A stretch of DNA of 55,455 nucleotides from an uncultured Bacteroidales bacterium. Lineage in GTDB: Bacteria > Bacteroidota > Bacteroidia > Bacteroidales > UBA4417. The first letter of the stretch is position 1; each line of letters opens with the position of its first letter. The stretch covers positions 1 to 55,455 of the forward strand of contig CAIRMR010000117.1 of assembly GCA_903879715.1 (NCBI GenBank), read 5' to 3'. A model generated the notes under the pieces. The model was not told where the DNA came from. It did no database searches and worked only from the letters and a program-made list of their open reading frames with translations. The position numbers were made by a program, and so were the translations under genes. Below, in pieces: positions 41,513-46,338 of the stretch.

Positions 41513-42220
41513 TCAGGCCGGATTTTCAGTAACCAGTTTAAATCCAATACCATGAACGTTAATCAGTTCAACCGAAGTATCTTCTTTCAGGTATTTACGG
41601 ATTTTGGCGATATAAACATCCATGCTCCGGGCATTGAAATAACTGTCGTTTTGCCATATACGATTCAGCGCAAAACTGCGGTCCACAACCTGGTTTACAT
41701 GCTCGCATAATATTTTCAGTAACTCTGCTTCTTTACTGGTGAGTTTCTGATCTTCTCCGTTCAGATGCAGATTCTGGTGATTATAATCGAAAACGAAATT
41801 ACCCAAGGTAAAAATTCCTTTATCCGTTTTACCATCGGTTACTTTAGCCGATCGCCTAAGAATGGCTTCGATACGGGCCAGAAGTTCTTCCATGCTGAAA
41901 GGTTTGGTAAGATAATCATCGCCTCCAGCCTGGAAACCTTTCAGTTTATCATCTTCAAGCGATTTTGCAGTCAGAAACAGGATCGGAATCTGCGTATCTA
42001 CTTTACGGATATCTTTAGCCAGTGTAAATCCATCTTTAATGGGCATCATTACATCCACTACACAAAAATCAAAGGATTCCTTGCTGAAAACGTCGAGTGC
42101 TTCTTGACCGTTTATACAAAGCCTGGGAGCATATCCCTTGGCTTCGAGGTAAGTGCGCAGAATAGTGCCAAGATTACGGTCGTCTTCGGCAAGCAGGATC
42201 TTTATTTTTTCGTTTTCCAT
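41513..42220 (-). CDS. OmpR-family response regulator
   Basis: A 235-residue regulator. The receiver domain (about 6-120) has acidic pocket residues Glu-12/Asp-13/Asp-14, phospho-acceptor Asp-56 in CVVDVMMPIKDG, and DDYLTKPFSMEELL. A winged-helix Trans_reg_C DNA-binding domain (about 135-230) ends with YIAKIRKYLKEDTSVELINVHGIGFKLV. It is 66 bp downstream of its partner kinase. Regulators of this class bind direct repeats with about 10-11-bp spacing, the geometry seen in the three operators at 44.0-44.7 kb. The assignment of those operators to this regulator is inference. Confidence 0.93.
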   Translation of the reverse strand: MENEKIKILLAEDDRNLGTILRTYLEAKGYAPRLCINGQEALDVFSKESFDFCVVDVMMPIKDGFTLAKDIRKVDTQIPILFLTAKSLEDDKLKGFQAGGDDYLTKPFSMEELLARIEAILRRSAKVTDGKTDKGIFTLGNFVFDYNHQNLHLNGEDQKLTSKEAELLKILCEHVNQVVDRSFALNRIWQNDSYFNARSMDVYIAKIRKYLKEDTSVELINVHGIGFKLVTENPA

Positions 42221-42286: not shown

Positions 42287-43852
42287 CTATTTTGATTTAC
42301 CTGATCTGTTTTGTTCAGGAACAACATACGGCAGAAATATGGTAAAGGTACTACCTTTTCCGGGTTCGCTTTCAACCGATATCGTACCGCCGTGTTTTTC
42401 AACAATAAATTTAACATAGCTGAGCCCAAGCCCGAATCCTTTTACATTATGAACATCACCAGTAGGAACACGGTATAATTTTTCGAAAATTCTTTTCAGA
42501 TTGGCTTTGCTGATTCCCATACCCTTGTCAGTAACACTGATGTAAATACCATTTTCGGCATCAGCTGTCGAAACCATGATTTGCGGTTTTCGTGGCGAGT
42601 ATTTATTAGCGTTGTCGAGCAAGTTAAAAATGACATTCGACAGATGCACTTTATCCGCTTTAATTAACGGATGCTCCGCTTTGAGTGAATGTGTAATTAC
42701 TCCATCGCGTATTTCAATCTGAATGGCAATTTTATGAATAGCGTCCGCAATCAGTACATGCATATCAATGGCTTCAGGCCTGAGGTGGAGGTTCCCTTTT
42801 TCAAGAATCGCTGTTTGAAGAATTTTTTCCGCCATCTCACCCAGGCGGTGATTTTCGTCACCAATGATATTAATATAATCGGCATACATTTCGTTGCTCC
42901 GGGGAATATCTTTATCCGAAAGTGCCTGGCATGCCAGCGATATGGTCGAAATAGGTGTCTTGAACTCGTGCGTCATATTATTGATAAAGTCGTTCTTAAG
43001 TTCCGATAATTTACGCTGCCTGATGATAGTGAAAACCGAATAACTGAAAGCGGTAATAATAACAAGCACAAGCAATAAGGAAACCATCATCATACCCCAT
43101 AGGCTCTGCAGGTTGTATTTTGATTGCTGCGGAAAATAAAGCAGCAAAAAGTCACGGGTCGCAATGCCACTGCCTGAAAACAAAGGAAATGGAAAACCTT
43201 TGAAAAGTAATTCATCAGAATAATTCCCGGTTTTTTTGAGAACAATCTTATTCCGGTCAGGACTGAAGACACCGAATTCGTAATTAATCCGGATTCCCTT
43301 GTTTGCAAATTCGGTTCTCAGCAATGTGTCGATCAAACCAATGGAAATCTTTGTTTCTATATCTTTATTCCCTTCATCACCTAAGGCCTGGTTCATCAGA
43401 TAATTCAGCATAAACTGCTTGCGCACGGCTGCTACTTCTGAATAGTTCTCGGTAATACTGGAAGGAAGTGTACCCCGGATATTTTTATCCGAATTGCTAA
43501 CTTGCTCCTGGCTTTTTCCGGATGGTGCCAGTATCCGGCCTTCCAGGGCAGGTTGTTTTGCCATTTCAATACCCTGTGTATCCGAATACGAAATATTTTG
43601 TATTCCCGAAGTATTCAGTTGTATCTCACTTGTATCACGTAAGAGCTCCAGTGAACTGTTGGTTGTGCGTCGCGAAATTTCAATAGTTTCGAGCTTTATT
43701 AATGCAAGATTTACAGCGTCGTCGATACTGCGCCTGAAATTGGCTTCCCTGAGTTGCAACGAATTCTGTATCCAGTACACCTGAATGCCAATAAATACAG
43801 CCATTGCGGCTGACATGATCACTATTAATAAAACCAGTAATTGCTTTTTCAC
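42287..43852 (-). CDS. Membrane sensor histidine kinase, partner of the OmpR-type regulator
   Basis: A 521-residue kinase. Two membrane helices (about 6-29 and 255-277) bracket a periplasmic sensor domain of about 225 residues. HisKA carries the phospho-acceptor His-295 in NNMTHEFKTPISTIS, and HATPase_c has N-box LLDNANKYS, DKGMGIS and GFGLGLSYVKFI. It is of the RprX/PhoR-like class common in Bacteroidota. The promoter is -7 box TAAATTTG at 44015-44008 (minus), only about 30 bp from the first TTAAC operator, so autoregulation is possible. The sensed signal is unknown. Confidence 0.92.
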   Translation of the reverse strand: MKKQLLVLLIVIMSAAMAVFIGIQVYWIQNSLQLREANFRRSIDDAVNLALIKLETIEISRRTTNSSLELLRDTSEIQLNTSGIQNISYSDTQGIEMAKQPALEGRILAPSGKSQEQVSNSDKNIRGTLPSSITENYSEVAAVRKQFMLNYLMNQALGDEGNKDIETKISIGLIDTLLRTEFANKGIRINYEFGVFSPDRNKIVLKKTGNYSDELLFKGFPFPLFSGSGIATRDFLLLYFPQQSKYNLQSLWGMMMVSLLLVLVIITAFSYSVFTIIRQRKLSELKNDFINNMTHEFKTPISTISLACQALSDKDIPRSNEMYADYINIIGDENHRLGEMAEKILQTAILEKGNLHLRPEAIDMHVLIADAIHKIAIQIEIRDGVITHSLKAEHPLIKADKVHLSNVIFNLLDNANKYSPRKPQIMVSTADAENGIYISVTDKGMGISKANLKRIFEKLYRVPTGDVHNVKGFGLGLSYVKFIVEKHGGTISVESEPGKGSTFTIFLPYVVPEQNRSGKSK

Positions 43853-44044: not shown

Positions 44045-44109
44045 CTTAACATTATTTAACGTTCTTTTACTTTCGTTAACATCCCATGCGGATTCATGAT
44101 AGTATTTTT
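44045..44109 (+). promoter_or_regulatory. Phased TTAAC operator and -7 box, small RNA copy 1
   Basis: TTAAC occurs at 44045, 44055 and 44075, with the degenerate TTTAC at 44065, so the array has exact 10-bp phasing. The -7 box TATTTTTG is at 44102-44109, 27 bp after the start of the last TTAAC. The last repeat lies where a -33 element is expected, as for an activator that contacts RNA polymerase. Confidence 0.75.
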
Positions 44110-44113
44110 GTAT

Positions 44114-44229
44114 CGGTTAGTTGAGCAAAAAGTTATTTTCAATTCTCTGCTGGTTACAGAGATATTTGTTTTACTGTTTTGTTGTTTGTTTGGGAAATGC
44201 GACTCATATCATGGGTTGCATTTTTTATT
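44114..44229 (+). ncRNA. Candidate small RNA, copy 1 of three tandem siblings
   Basis: Predicted start is near 44114 (GGTTAGTTGAGCAAAA). Hairpin 1 is TCTCTG/CAGAGA with loop CTGGTTA (44143-44161). The unpaired GTTTTGTTGTTTGTTTGG (44175-44192) is identical in all three copies. The terminator hairpin is ATGCGACTC/GGGTTGCAT (44196-44204 with 44212-44220, loop of 7), then a T-run. No open frame is conserved between copies. The length is about 113 nt. Confidence 0.75.
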
Positions 44230-44311
44230 TGGCAATTCAGAGGTACTGTATTTTCATACATTAGCTTAAGGTTCCACGCGAATTTATACAGCATTAAAAT
44301 ATTTCCAATAC

Positions 44312-44376
44312 TTAACAATTTTTAACGTTCTTTACTTTTCATTAACATTTAAAAATTGATTCTCACCTTATCTTTG
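44312..44376 (+). promoter_or_regulatory. Phased TTAAC operator and -7 box, small RNA copy 2
   Basis: TTAAC at 44312, 44322 and 44342 again uses the 10-bp phase. The -7 box TATCTTTG is at 44369-44376, again exactly 27 bp after the start of the last TTAAC. Confidence 0.75.
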
Positions 44377-44380
44377 TATC

Positions 44381-44496
44381 GGTTAGTTGAACAAAAGTTA
44401 TTATATTCAATCTCTTTTTTATAGAGAATTTTATTGACAAGTTTTGTTGTTTGTTTGGAAAAATGCGGTTCTATTCAGGGCCGCATTTTTTTTATT
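44381..44496 (+). ncRNA. Candidate small RNA, copy 2 of three tandem siblings
   Basis: It starts near 44381 (GGTTAGTTGAACAAAAG). Hairpin 1 has changed sequence but is still paired (TCTCT/AGAGA, 44411-44427). The invariant 18-mer is at 44441-44458. The terminator stem is ATGCGGTTC/GGGCCGCAT (44463-44471 with 44478-44486), followed by eight T. Compared with copy 1, substitutions on both sides of the terminator stem preserve pairing. Confidence 0.75.
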
Positions 44497-44693
44497 TGTC
44501 TGTTTATAATTTTTCGGTACTCCTTAAGCTATTCCTGGCACAACATAACGAAGATTCGAGCCCGAAAAAGGCATTTTATCAATGATATTTACCAGTACTC
44601 TAAACAGATAATCTGTTATCTCTTCAAAATCTGTGGCCAAATTTGTTCGCTACCATTTTTCCGACGGGAGAAATAAAAAACAATTTTAACACC

Positions 44694-44758
44694 TTAACAC
44701 ATTTTAACGATCTTTTTATTTCGTTAACATTCTGCTGTTGTTTCGGGCAGTACTTTTG
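44694..44758 (+). promoter_or_regulatory. Phased TTAAC operator and -7 box, small RNA copy 3
   Basis: TTAAC at 44694, 44704 and 44724, with -7 box TACTTTTG at 44751-44758. The phase and the 27-bp distance are identical to copies 1 and 2. Confidence 0.75.
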
Positions 44759-44762
44759 TATC

Positions 44763-44880
44763 GGTTAGTTAAACAAAAGGTTATTCTTACAAGTCTCTGC
44801 TGGTTACAGAGATATTTTTATAACTGGTTTTGTTGTTTGTTTGGAGAAATGCGGCTCACATACTGGGCCGCATTTTTTAT
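44763..44880 (+). ncRNA. Candidate small RNA, copy 3 of three tandem siblings
   Basis: It starts near 44763 (GGTTAGTTAAACAAAAGG). Hairpin 1 is TCTCTG/CAGAGA with the same CTGGTTA loop as copy 1 (44794-44812). The invariant 18-mer is at 44827-44844. The terminator stem ATGCGGCTC/GGGCCGCAT (44849-44857 with 44865-44873) is followed by TTTTTTATT. It ends about 105 bp before pgi, which therefore has a separate promoter or read-through. Confidence 0.75.
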
Positions 44881-44985: not shown

Positions 44986-46338
44986 ATGATAAATCTTCAA
45001 TTTCAATATAAACATGTAACACGTTTTCTTTCGGAAGAAGAGATTTATTTAATGCAGGACGAAGTCGATATCAGTCATAGTCTTTTAATCGAAAAAGCAG
45101 GGAAGGGAAATCAATACCTGGGGTGGATTGATCTTCCTGCCAGGACAGATGAAACCCTCATCAATACTATTGAAGCTGACGCAAAATCACTACGCGAAAA
45201 AATTGAAATCCTGGTTGTGATTGGAATCGGAGGATCTTATCTGGGATCAAGGGCCATCCTGGAAGCGCTTTCTTCACCATTTTCCGCCTTTTTTACCGAA
45301 AATAAAAATCCGGCTGTTTTATATGCCGGACAGAATATCAGCCAGGATTATTATTCGGAACTGATTCATCTGCTTGATAAAAAGGAATATGCCATTTTAG
45401 TTATTTCAAAATCCGGCACAACCACTGAACCGGCCATCGCTTTCAGGCTTCTAAAAAATCATATTGAAAAAAAATATGGACCTGAAGAAGCAGCCAGCCG
45501 GATAATAGCCATCACGGACGGTTCTAAAGGAGCGTTAAAAAGCCTTTCGGAAAAGAACGGGTATACAACTTATGTAATTCCGGATGATATAGGAGGCCGG
45601 TATTCCGTGCTTACTCCTGTTGGTTTGTTGCCGGTTGCAATTGCAGGATACAATATCAGGGAACTCATTGAAGGTGCAAATGAGATGCGAAAGGCTTGTG
45701 TTGAAACATCTTCATTACTTGATAATCCGGCAGCCTGCTATGCCGCAATCCGTACTTCTTTGTACCGTACGGGAAGCCAGATTGAAATTCTTGTTAATTA
45801 TGAACCTTCGCTGCATTATTTTACTGAATGGTGGAAACAACTTTTTGGCGAAAGCGAGGGGAAGGAGAATGAGGGTTTATTTCCGGCAGGCGCAGATTTT
45901 ACAAGCGACCTGCATTCGATGGGGCAATATATACAGGAAGGGCAACGGATGCTCTTTGAAACCGTAATTCATGTTCAAAAGTCAAAACATTTACTTTCGA
46001 TCCCCGCTAATGAGTCTGACCTGGATGGTCTGAATTATTTAACCGGAAAAACACTTCACCAGATAAATGAAATGGCTGCTCTCGGAACTACGCTGGCGCA
46101 TATTGACGGGGAAGTTCCCAATCTCGATATTTTACTGCCAACGATTGATGAACGTTCACTTGGCGAATTGATCTACTTCTTCGAATTCGCCTGTGGTTTG
46201 AGTGGTTACCTGTTAGGAATCAATCCATTTAACCAGCCTGGCGTGGAAGCGTATAAAAACAATATGTTTGCATTGCTGGGAAAACCTGGATTTGAAAATG
46301 AATCGGAAGCGATAAGAGAACGGATTAATGAGGAATAA
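44986..46338 (+). CDS. pgi: Glucose-6-phosphate isomerase
   Basis: A 450-residue enzyme, the short form common in Firmicutes and Bacteroidota. Motifs are GIGGSYLGSRAILEAL (about 80-95), VISKSGTTTEPAIAFR (phosphate-binding), DIGGRYSVLTPVGLLP and the catalytic-base region GLSGYLLGINPFNQPGVEAYK. It interconverts glucose-6-phosphate and fructose-6-phosphate. The three small RNA genes lie directly upstream on the same strand and terminate about 105 bp before the start. Confidence 0.96.
   Translation: MINLQFQYKHVTRFLSEEEIYLMQDEVDISHSLLIEKAGKGNQYLGWIDLPARTDETLINTIEADAKSLREKIEILVVIGIGGSYLGSRAILEALSSPFSAFFTENKNPAVLYAGQNISQDYYSELIHLLDKKEYAILVISKSGTTTEPAIAFRLLKNHIEKKYGPEEAASRIIAITDGSKGALKSLSEKNGYTTYVIPDDIGGRYSVLTPVGLLPVAIAGYNIRELIEGANEMRKACVETSSLLDNPAACYAAIRTSLYRTGSQIEILVNYEPSLHYFTEWWKQLFGESEGKENEGLFPAGADFTSDLHSMGQYIQEGQRMLFETVIHVQKSKHLLSIPANESDLDGLNYLTGKTLHQINEMAALGTTLAHIDGEVPNLDILLPTIDERSLGELIYFFEFACGLSGYLLGINPFNQPGVEAYKNNMFALLGKPGFENESEAIRERINEE

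Follow-up and report, generated by a model that had tools for sequence, protein, structure and literature searches.

Three tandem units lie at 44046-44879 of the window (the whole 55,455-nucleotide stretch of Bacteroidales DNA analyzed here), each made up of TTAAC boxes, a TAnnTTTG box, a folded RNA and a terminator. With moderate confidence, the units are read here as genes for sibling small RNAs (sRNAs) under RprY, distantly related to the FopS RNAs of gut Bacteroides and likely to pair where translation begins. Other Bacteroidales families show this promoter and RNA layout too, again linked to rprX. This recurrence suggests a regulatory RNA system that has been overlooked and is related to FopS.

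Multicopy sRNAs are already known in the phylum. Passages of PMC11697453 describe FopS, a 14-member paralogous sRNA family of B. thetaiotaomicron, and a further six-member family. The initial annotation knew of nothing comparable in Bacteroidota, a claim not supported in view of these families and of relatives of the window RNAs that match FopS below cut-off. The new part is therefore a two-component-linked operator on FopS-related or FopS-like siblings in many families. That annotation held no mention of the rprXY linkage, the spread through the order or the existence of two spacing classes that differ by one turn of the helix. Two consequences make the system worth attention: a widespread, little-studied two-component system (214/247 genomes of the order carry an rprX-like match) is linked to small RNAs, and the operator, precisely defined and with two spacings that differ by one helical turn, can be put to a footprinting test in cultured relatives, Draconibacterium orientale among them.

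Three tandem units between rprX and pgi

The units occupy the interval between the divergent genes rprX (minus strand) and pgi (plus strand). The rprX-like histidine kinase gene (42287..43852, minus) encodes HisKA and HATPase_c domains, and its orthologues adjoin the operator in other families. A gene for an rprY-like response regulator of the OmpR family, the proposed activator, lies at 41513..42220 on the same strand. Its product carries Pfam Response_reg and Trans_reg_C domains and scores 321.9 bits against NCBIfam RprY, the best of 92 families, without reaching the curated cut-off of 370 for NF051850. By synteny, pgi (44986..46338, plus; NCBIfam 650 bits, cut-off 443) is a conserved downstream flank and is not thought to be part of the system. 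At gathering level, Rfam returned only two tRNAs from the whole window.

Repeat search and alignment resolve the units as direct repeats in three copies (102 + 70 + 41 nt), spaced by about 266 and 382. The order within a unit is TTAAC boxes, TAnnTTTG, a conserved 5' GGTTAGTT, a stem-loop, GTTTTGTTGTTTGTTTGG and an intrinsic terminator. Alignment bears out the initial description of three tandem units with TTAAC at 10-bp phase. The boxes start at 44046/44056/44076, 44312/44322/44342 and 44694/44704/44724, in steps of 10 and 20 bp, and a degenerate box fills the third position of each series. Alignment and operator search place the three operators, all on the plus strand, at 44046..44081, 44312..44347 and 44694..44729. 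The constant 27-bp gap reported earlier is correct if measured from the first base of the last TTAAC to the first base of the TA of the -7 box, which leaves 22 nt between them. Read from the letters, and for copy 1 also from the alignment, the -7 boxes are TATTTTTG at 44103..44110, TATCTTTG at 44369..44376 and TACTTTTG at 44751..44758 (plus strand); the last two positions agree with those first given, and the first box had been put at 44102.

Folding, alignment and model search predict sRNAs of about 113-118 nt at 44114..44229, 44380..44492 and 44762..44879 on the plus strand. Their fold z-scores are -4.1, -5.0 and -5.2 for copies 1 to 3, and 0/200 shuffles folded as well for any copy. The 18-nt G/U-rich stretch proposed as the seed, GTTTTGTTGTTTGTTTGG, is identical in all three copies, as had been noted; repeat alignment locates it at 44176..44193, 44441..44458 and 44827..44844 (plus). 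The terminators follow on the same strand at 44195..44226 in copy 1 (folding, pair changes), 44457..44492 in copy 2 (terminator scan) and 44847..44879 in copy 3 (repeats, folding). A simple scan called a terminator for copy 2 only and the 5' hairpin instead in copies 1 and 3, whose terminators are based on folding and pair changes.

The full operator, with up to two mismatches, is found at only three places in the 6.07-Mb genome (reversed control 0), and the 13-mer GTATCGGTTAGTT also occurs there only three times. Because each appears only three times in this genome, a scattered repeat is ruled out.

Conservation in the genus and spread through the order

A covariance model built from the three window copies (R1), the search that the initial annotation had proposed, was run on 60 genomes and matched 17, including 14 of the 16 genus genomes with the window's own counted. 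Two genus members (G011 and G013) gave no match to this model. Matches at E ~1e-3 in three genomes of other families (G018, G025 and G046) were dropped, as the synteny is absent there. An rprX-sRNA-pgi arrangement with one to three sRNA copies is present in all 14 genus genomes with context (13 fetched and the window), and in G009 it is divided between two contigs. The 12-mer GTTGTTTGTTTG is found in 26/27 genus matches to the covariance model. The operator, the -7 box at +22 (or 23) and a 5' GGTTARTT are held in 26/26 aligned genus copies, and the exact 18-mer in 19/26, in an alignment that was chosen by the exact 12-mer and in which only three further seed letters are invariant beside it.

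The middle of the RNA is rewritten across the genus, most clearly in four single-copy genomes, while its pairing is kept. In the stem-loop domain and terminator, 90.3% of cells are paired across the genus alignment, compared with 43-56% when the structure is slid, a comparison favoured by the use of the copy 3 fold as the counted structure. Cells changed on both sides number 29 against 10.6 in shuffles, with 0/500 shuffles as high, and in one copy (G010_1) a G-C pair in the long stem is swapped for C-G. These counts uphold the earlier proposal of a selected RNA family with a common promoter and covarying stems. An extra, dispersed copy of the genus sRNA was seen in G005 (L012, C131:759-881), with neither rprX nor pgi in the fetched 10 kb; it departs from the 12-mer in the last letter, its seed ending in A rather than G.

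Beyond the genus, an operator search of 247 genomes of the order matched 21 genomes (reversed control 0). Eighteen of the 23 non-genus sites lie just upstream of a divergent rprX. The remaining five all belong to G079, which has 6 operator sites; no rprX is present in the fetched locus, and 4/5 precede an RNA of the same layout. Of the 214 genomes with an rprX-like match, the 128 best-scoring were read upstream of rprX with an operator matrix made from genus sites only, and with a threshold of 4.0, the maximum of 640 base-composition shuffles. Scores above 4.0 were obtained for 61/128 regions and scores at or below it for 67/128. Two of the 128 (G001 and G004) are genus members; without them, 59/126 regions, in 40 families, score above every shuffle.

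The -7 box falls into two spacing classes. Among the 61 regions, exact -7 boxes at offsets 1-40 stand at offset 22 in 35, 12 in 11, 23 in 1 and 24 in 1, and the rest have no exact box in that range; outside the genus (59/126 regions), the figures are 33 at offset 22 and 11 at offset 12. A scan of named genomes, covering at least 117 stretches of which 80 were used, gave spacing 22 in 47, 12 in 37, and 13 and 19 once each, for at least 86 sites, with a permitted gap of 12-22 so that both classes are the ends of the range. Several of the named loci come from the same assemblies as genomes of the order set. A divergent rprX lies within 1.5 kb of 49 of these at least 86 sites. Spacings that differ by exactly one helical turn would be expected if an activator contacts polymerase from a single face of the helix.

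RNA-like features accompany the distant sites as well. A terminator is found within 200 nt in 30/45, against a mean of 1.0 (maximum 3) for dinucleotide shuffles and 1 on the opposite strand. Tandem copies also recur: two in Draconibacterium orientale (L223:4009-4375), two each in the Prolixibacteraceae loci L258 and L261, and three in Marinifilaceae (L288). The single records read from Parabacteroides, Prevotella and Phocaeicola show no operator upstream of rprX.

Two other arrangements of the operator were observed. In some loci, the rprX-divergent operator precedes a gene for an exported-looking protein instead of an sRNA, for example at L163:470-1114 on the minus strand (MKKLLLLGSL...VTTDTTF), with a similar arrangement in G241, G145, G168, G022, G159, G202 and L239. 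The one such protein tested matched no Pfam family. The layout is reminiscent of cpxP, which adjoins cpxRA. Separately, protein-coding frames on a 93-kb viral contig (IMGVR_UViG_3300020045_020105; L501-L504), one of them helicase-like by eye, are preceded by four promoters that have TTAAC-type boxes, four or five each, in 10-bp phase. This may be a case of a phage borrowing the host regulator. Across the five viral stretches with the operator, protein genes were present there and no RNA was found.

Proposed regulation and pairing

The RprXY two-component system is described from B. fragilis, and RprY from P. gingivalis, in PMC3646045 and PMC6032018. In the mechanism proposed for the window, RprY encoded next door would switch on the three sibling sRNA genes. 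Phosphorylated RprY would bind the TTAAC-type half-sites on one DNA face and bring RNA polymerase to the TAnnTTTG box. The RNAs would each form a 5' stem-loop domain ending in the G/U-rich seed before the terminator. This seed may pair with A/C-rich leaders around the start codons of envelope mRNAs and block translation, much as FopS represses translation of susC by pairing near its start codon, according to passages of PMC11697453. The tandem copies would mainly add dosage because the seed is common to them. Gene layout, conservation, folding, operator geometry, the rprX linkage and the similarity of relatives to FopS come directly from computation; activation by RprY, production of the RNAs, their pairing and their targets are inferred.

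In relatives, the motif TTTCATA, the complement of TATGAAA (a start codon followed by lysine), precedes the terminator in 39/111 RNAs, against 1.4 expected from base-composition shuffles, in a set whose sequences are related and whose counts are thus not independent. These 111 distinct RNAs with a called terminator were drawn from 172 candidates, of which 42 had none and duplicates were dropped. By set, the motif occurs in 6/21 genus, 7/46 order and 26/44 named RNAs with a called terminator. Several genus copies read TTCATAACTGGTTTTG; window copy 3 has TTTTTATAACTGG, and the window copies are without the CAT of the anti-start motif. Across families, the stretch remains rich in G and U although its exact sequence changes.

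Searches for targets came out negative or weak and did not confirm the proposed pairing. The spaced pattern AAACCANNNATGAAA matched 90 times in 16 genus genomes (at least 5 being the sRNAs) and the reversed leader 94 times, a single repeated 15-mer making up 20 of the latter; there is no clear enrichment, and therefore no target is claimed. A longer seed complement gave 144 matches in the same number of genus genomes (16 being sRNAs) against 93 in the control. The full seed complement gave 13 in the window's own genome (3 self) against 1 in the control, but not one of the 10 non-self matches seems to sit at a start codon. In 13 other genomes, the anti-start complement matched 19 times (4 being sRNAs) against 10 in the control. 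Of the 15 non-self matches, eight coincide with the start of an ORF of 66 aa or more, and by eye several of these ORFs encode signal-like N-termini. In the genus genomes, matches chosen for ending in ATGAAA, where they open a frame, mostly encode proteins with signal-like N-termini, two of them SusD-like (by eye); leaders before ATGAAA are biased in this direction. The one Draconibacterium pattern match (0 mismatches; L339) is, judging by its letters, the complement of the sRNA itself.

The G/U-rich strand of real, RprY-linked RNAs might instead titrate an RRM-type protein such as RbpB, with pairing a minor activity. We consider this unlikely, at about one chance in several. It would account for a G/U-rich stretch that is kept while the exact sequence varies between families and for the genome-wide target enrichment not seen, and FopS RNAs do bind RbpB in the account of PMC11697453. 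However, an exact 12-mer in nearly every genus match is stricter than a composition-type protein site needs, the stretch in relatives often contains the anti-start-codon TTTCATA, and FopS, in the same account, works by pairing.

An equally improbable account assigns the operator mainly to autoregulation of rprX-rprY, or to repression, with the sRNA promoter sharing it by position. The first operator does lie ~40-200 bp from the rprX start, and RprY of P. gingivalis is described as a probable repressor in PMC3646045. Against this, an operator of its own precedes every tandem copy, even those that lie hundreds of bp away from rprX, some genomes have sites without rprX within the fetched locus, and on the sRNA side the -7 box keeps a fixed offset of 22 or 12. 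Slightly less probable still is binding of the sites by a different OmpR-type regulator. The genome encodes further RprY-like regulators at G000:C179:6694-7392 (288 bits) and G000:C110:19030-19716 (238 bits), yet the adjacent regulator is the best match, at about 321 bits, and most non-genus sites (18/23) lie beside rprX.

An insertion repeat, the alternative already raised in the initial annotation, or a tiny-protein family is taken as refuted: three tandem copies and an 80-aa mechanical ORF that starts at the end of copy 2 and extends into the spacer are outweighed by an operator found only three times in the genome, fixed synteny, covarying base pairs, and 1-2 nt indels between copies at which a reading frame would break. 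Sibling sRNAs under the adjacent RprY remain the preferred reading.

FopS and other known systems

Similarity to FopS appears in the relatives of the window RNAs. The genus model (R2) was run on 62 chosen sources and FopS scans on 25, most of them picked for holding the operator; at E<=0.1, 20/20 non-genus R2 matches, representing 17 distinct RNAs, lie within 139 nt of the operator start. The Rfam FopS model (RF04319) gave 14 matches in 10/25 chosen loci (112,611 bases) at 30.1-43.5 bits, all below the gathering score of 56 bits; their E-values are quoted for 4227 families at once and are far smaller for one family. All 14 lie downstream of the operator and 13/14 have an exact -7 box at offset 12 or 22, mostly in the spacing-12 class, with the L160 operator, just outside the stretch scanned for operators, taken from the rprX-upstream reading. 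By the genus matrix, 7/14 of these operators score below 4.0. The FopS start, GUGUUUUUCAU..GGUUAA, aligns with RNAs of Draconibacterium and other genomes. One G021 RNA is matched by both models (L069, R2 E 0.19; L160, FopS 43.5 bits), and this overlap ties the window RNAs to FopS via intermediates, weakly at that step. The window copies themselves give no match to the FopS model even at E 10.

The promoters of FopS itself are different. The operator is absent by matrix from 31 FopS promoter rows (23 viral-loci rows and 8 named, some duplicates), the best scoring <= -27.5; the rows come from Bacteroidaceae, Parabacteroides, Prevotella and viral contigs (24 viral loci). These promoters (L477-L500, L506-L520) often have a TTAA..TTATA-like pair in 10-bp phase. 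A TTAA-like pair 62-64 bp before the -7 box is the best pair in 17/24 distinct FopS promoters with a -7 box. This pair is read as a separate element or a derived one, and may be where the regulator of FopS binds.

RprXY of B. fragilis and RprY of P. gingivalis represent the regulator family of the adjacent gene pair, and no sRNA partner was found in the available passages of PMC3646045 and PMC6032018. An rprX-linked sRNA was likewise not found in open-licence literature, among the matches listed; RprY was not found in PMC7366714, PMC10994844, PMC11697453 and PMC12596196, nor RprX in PMC10994844 and PMC12596196. Among Rfam matches to the sRNAs, L20_leader and other weak ones rest on T-rich stretches and the terminator and were rejected. 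The match of BTnc231, which we take to be BatR, to copy 2 was also rejected, at 21.6 bits against a gathering score of 80.4 and with most of the model deleted. GcvB has a G/U-rich seed and belongs to a different regulator and phylum from the window sRNAs. It works in a similar way, acting on translation-enhancing ACA motifs near the start (PMC3879156), and no homology to the window sRNAs was found in Rfam. BTnc231/BatR (RF04180) is a Bacteroides sRNA that acts at the starts of cell-surface mRNAs, as passages of PMC10861873 describe.

OmrA/OmrB of E. coli offer a parallel in arrangement. Passages of PMC4211561 describe them as tandem siblings with like promoters, common ends and divergent middles, controlled by an OmpR-family two-component system; for the window units, the corresponding OmpR-family control is proposed from geometry and linkage. 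The pairing region of OmrA/B is 5' and Hfq is needed (passages of the same paper), whereas the window sRNA genes adjoin their regulator genes, and no Rfam match to OmrA/OmrB was obtained at E<=10.

FopS remains the closest comparison. In both, the sRNAs are multicopy, each has a TAnnTTTG promoter of canonical form, and the seed stands ahead of an intrinsic terminator; both also have paralogues, several per genome for FopS and 1-3 copies in the window genus. They differ in length (~115 nt for the window copies, ~65-70 nt for FopS) and in architecture, since the window RNAs have a covarying stem-loop domain upstream of the terminator, whereas FopS has a single-stranded 5' part and the terminator. 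The window copies are tandem beside rprX, with a TTAAC operator absent from the examined FopS promoters, and all three lack the 5' UUUUUCAU anti-start seed. We give slightly less than even weight to the following tentative history. RprXY would be a Bacteroidales system for envelope stress that ancestrally acted mainly through a clan of sRNAs with anti-start-codon seeds; the FopS branch would have left rprX and changed its promoter, and the branch of the window genus would have changed its seed and multiplied in tandem. The window system would then indicate where the published FopS family may have come from.
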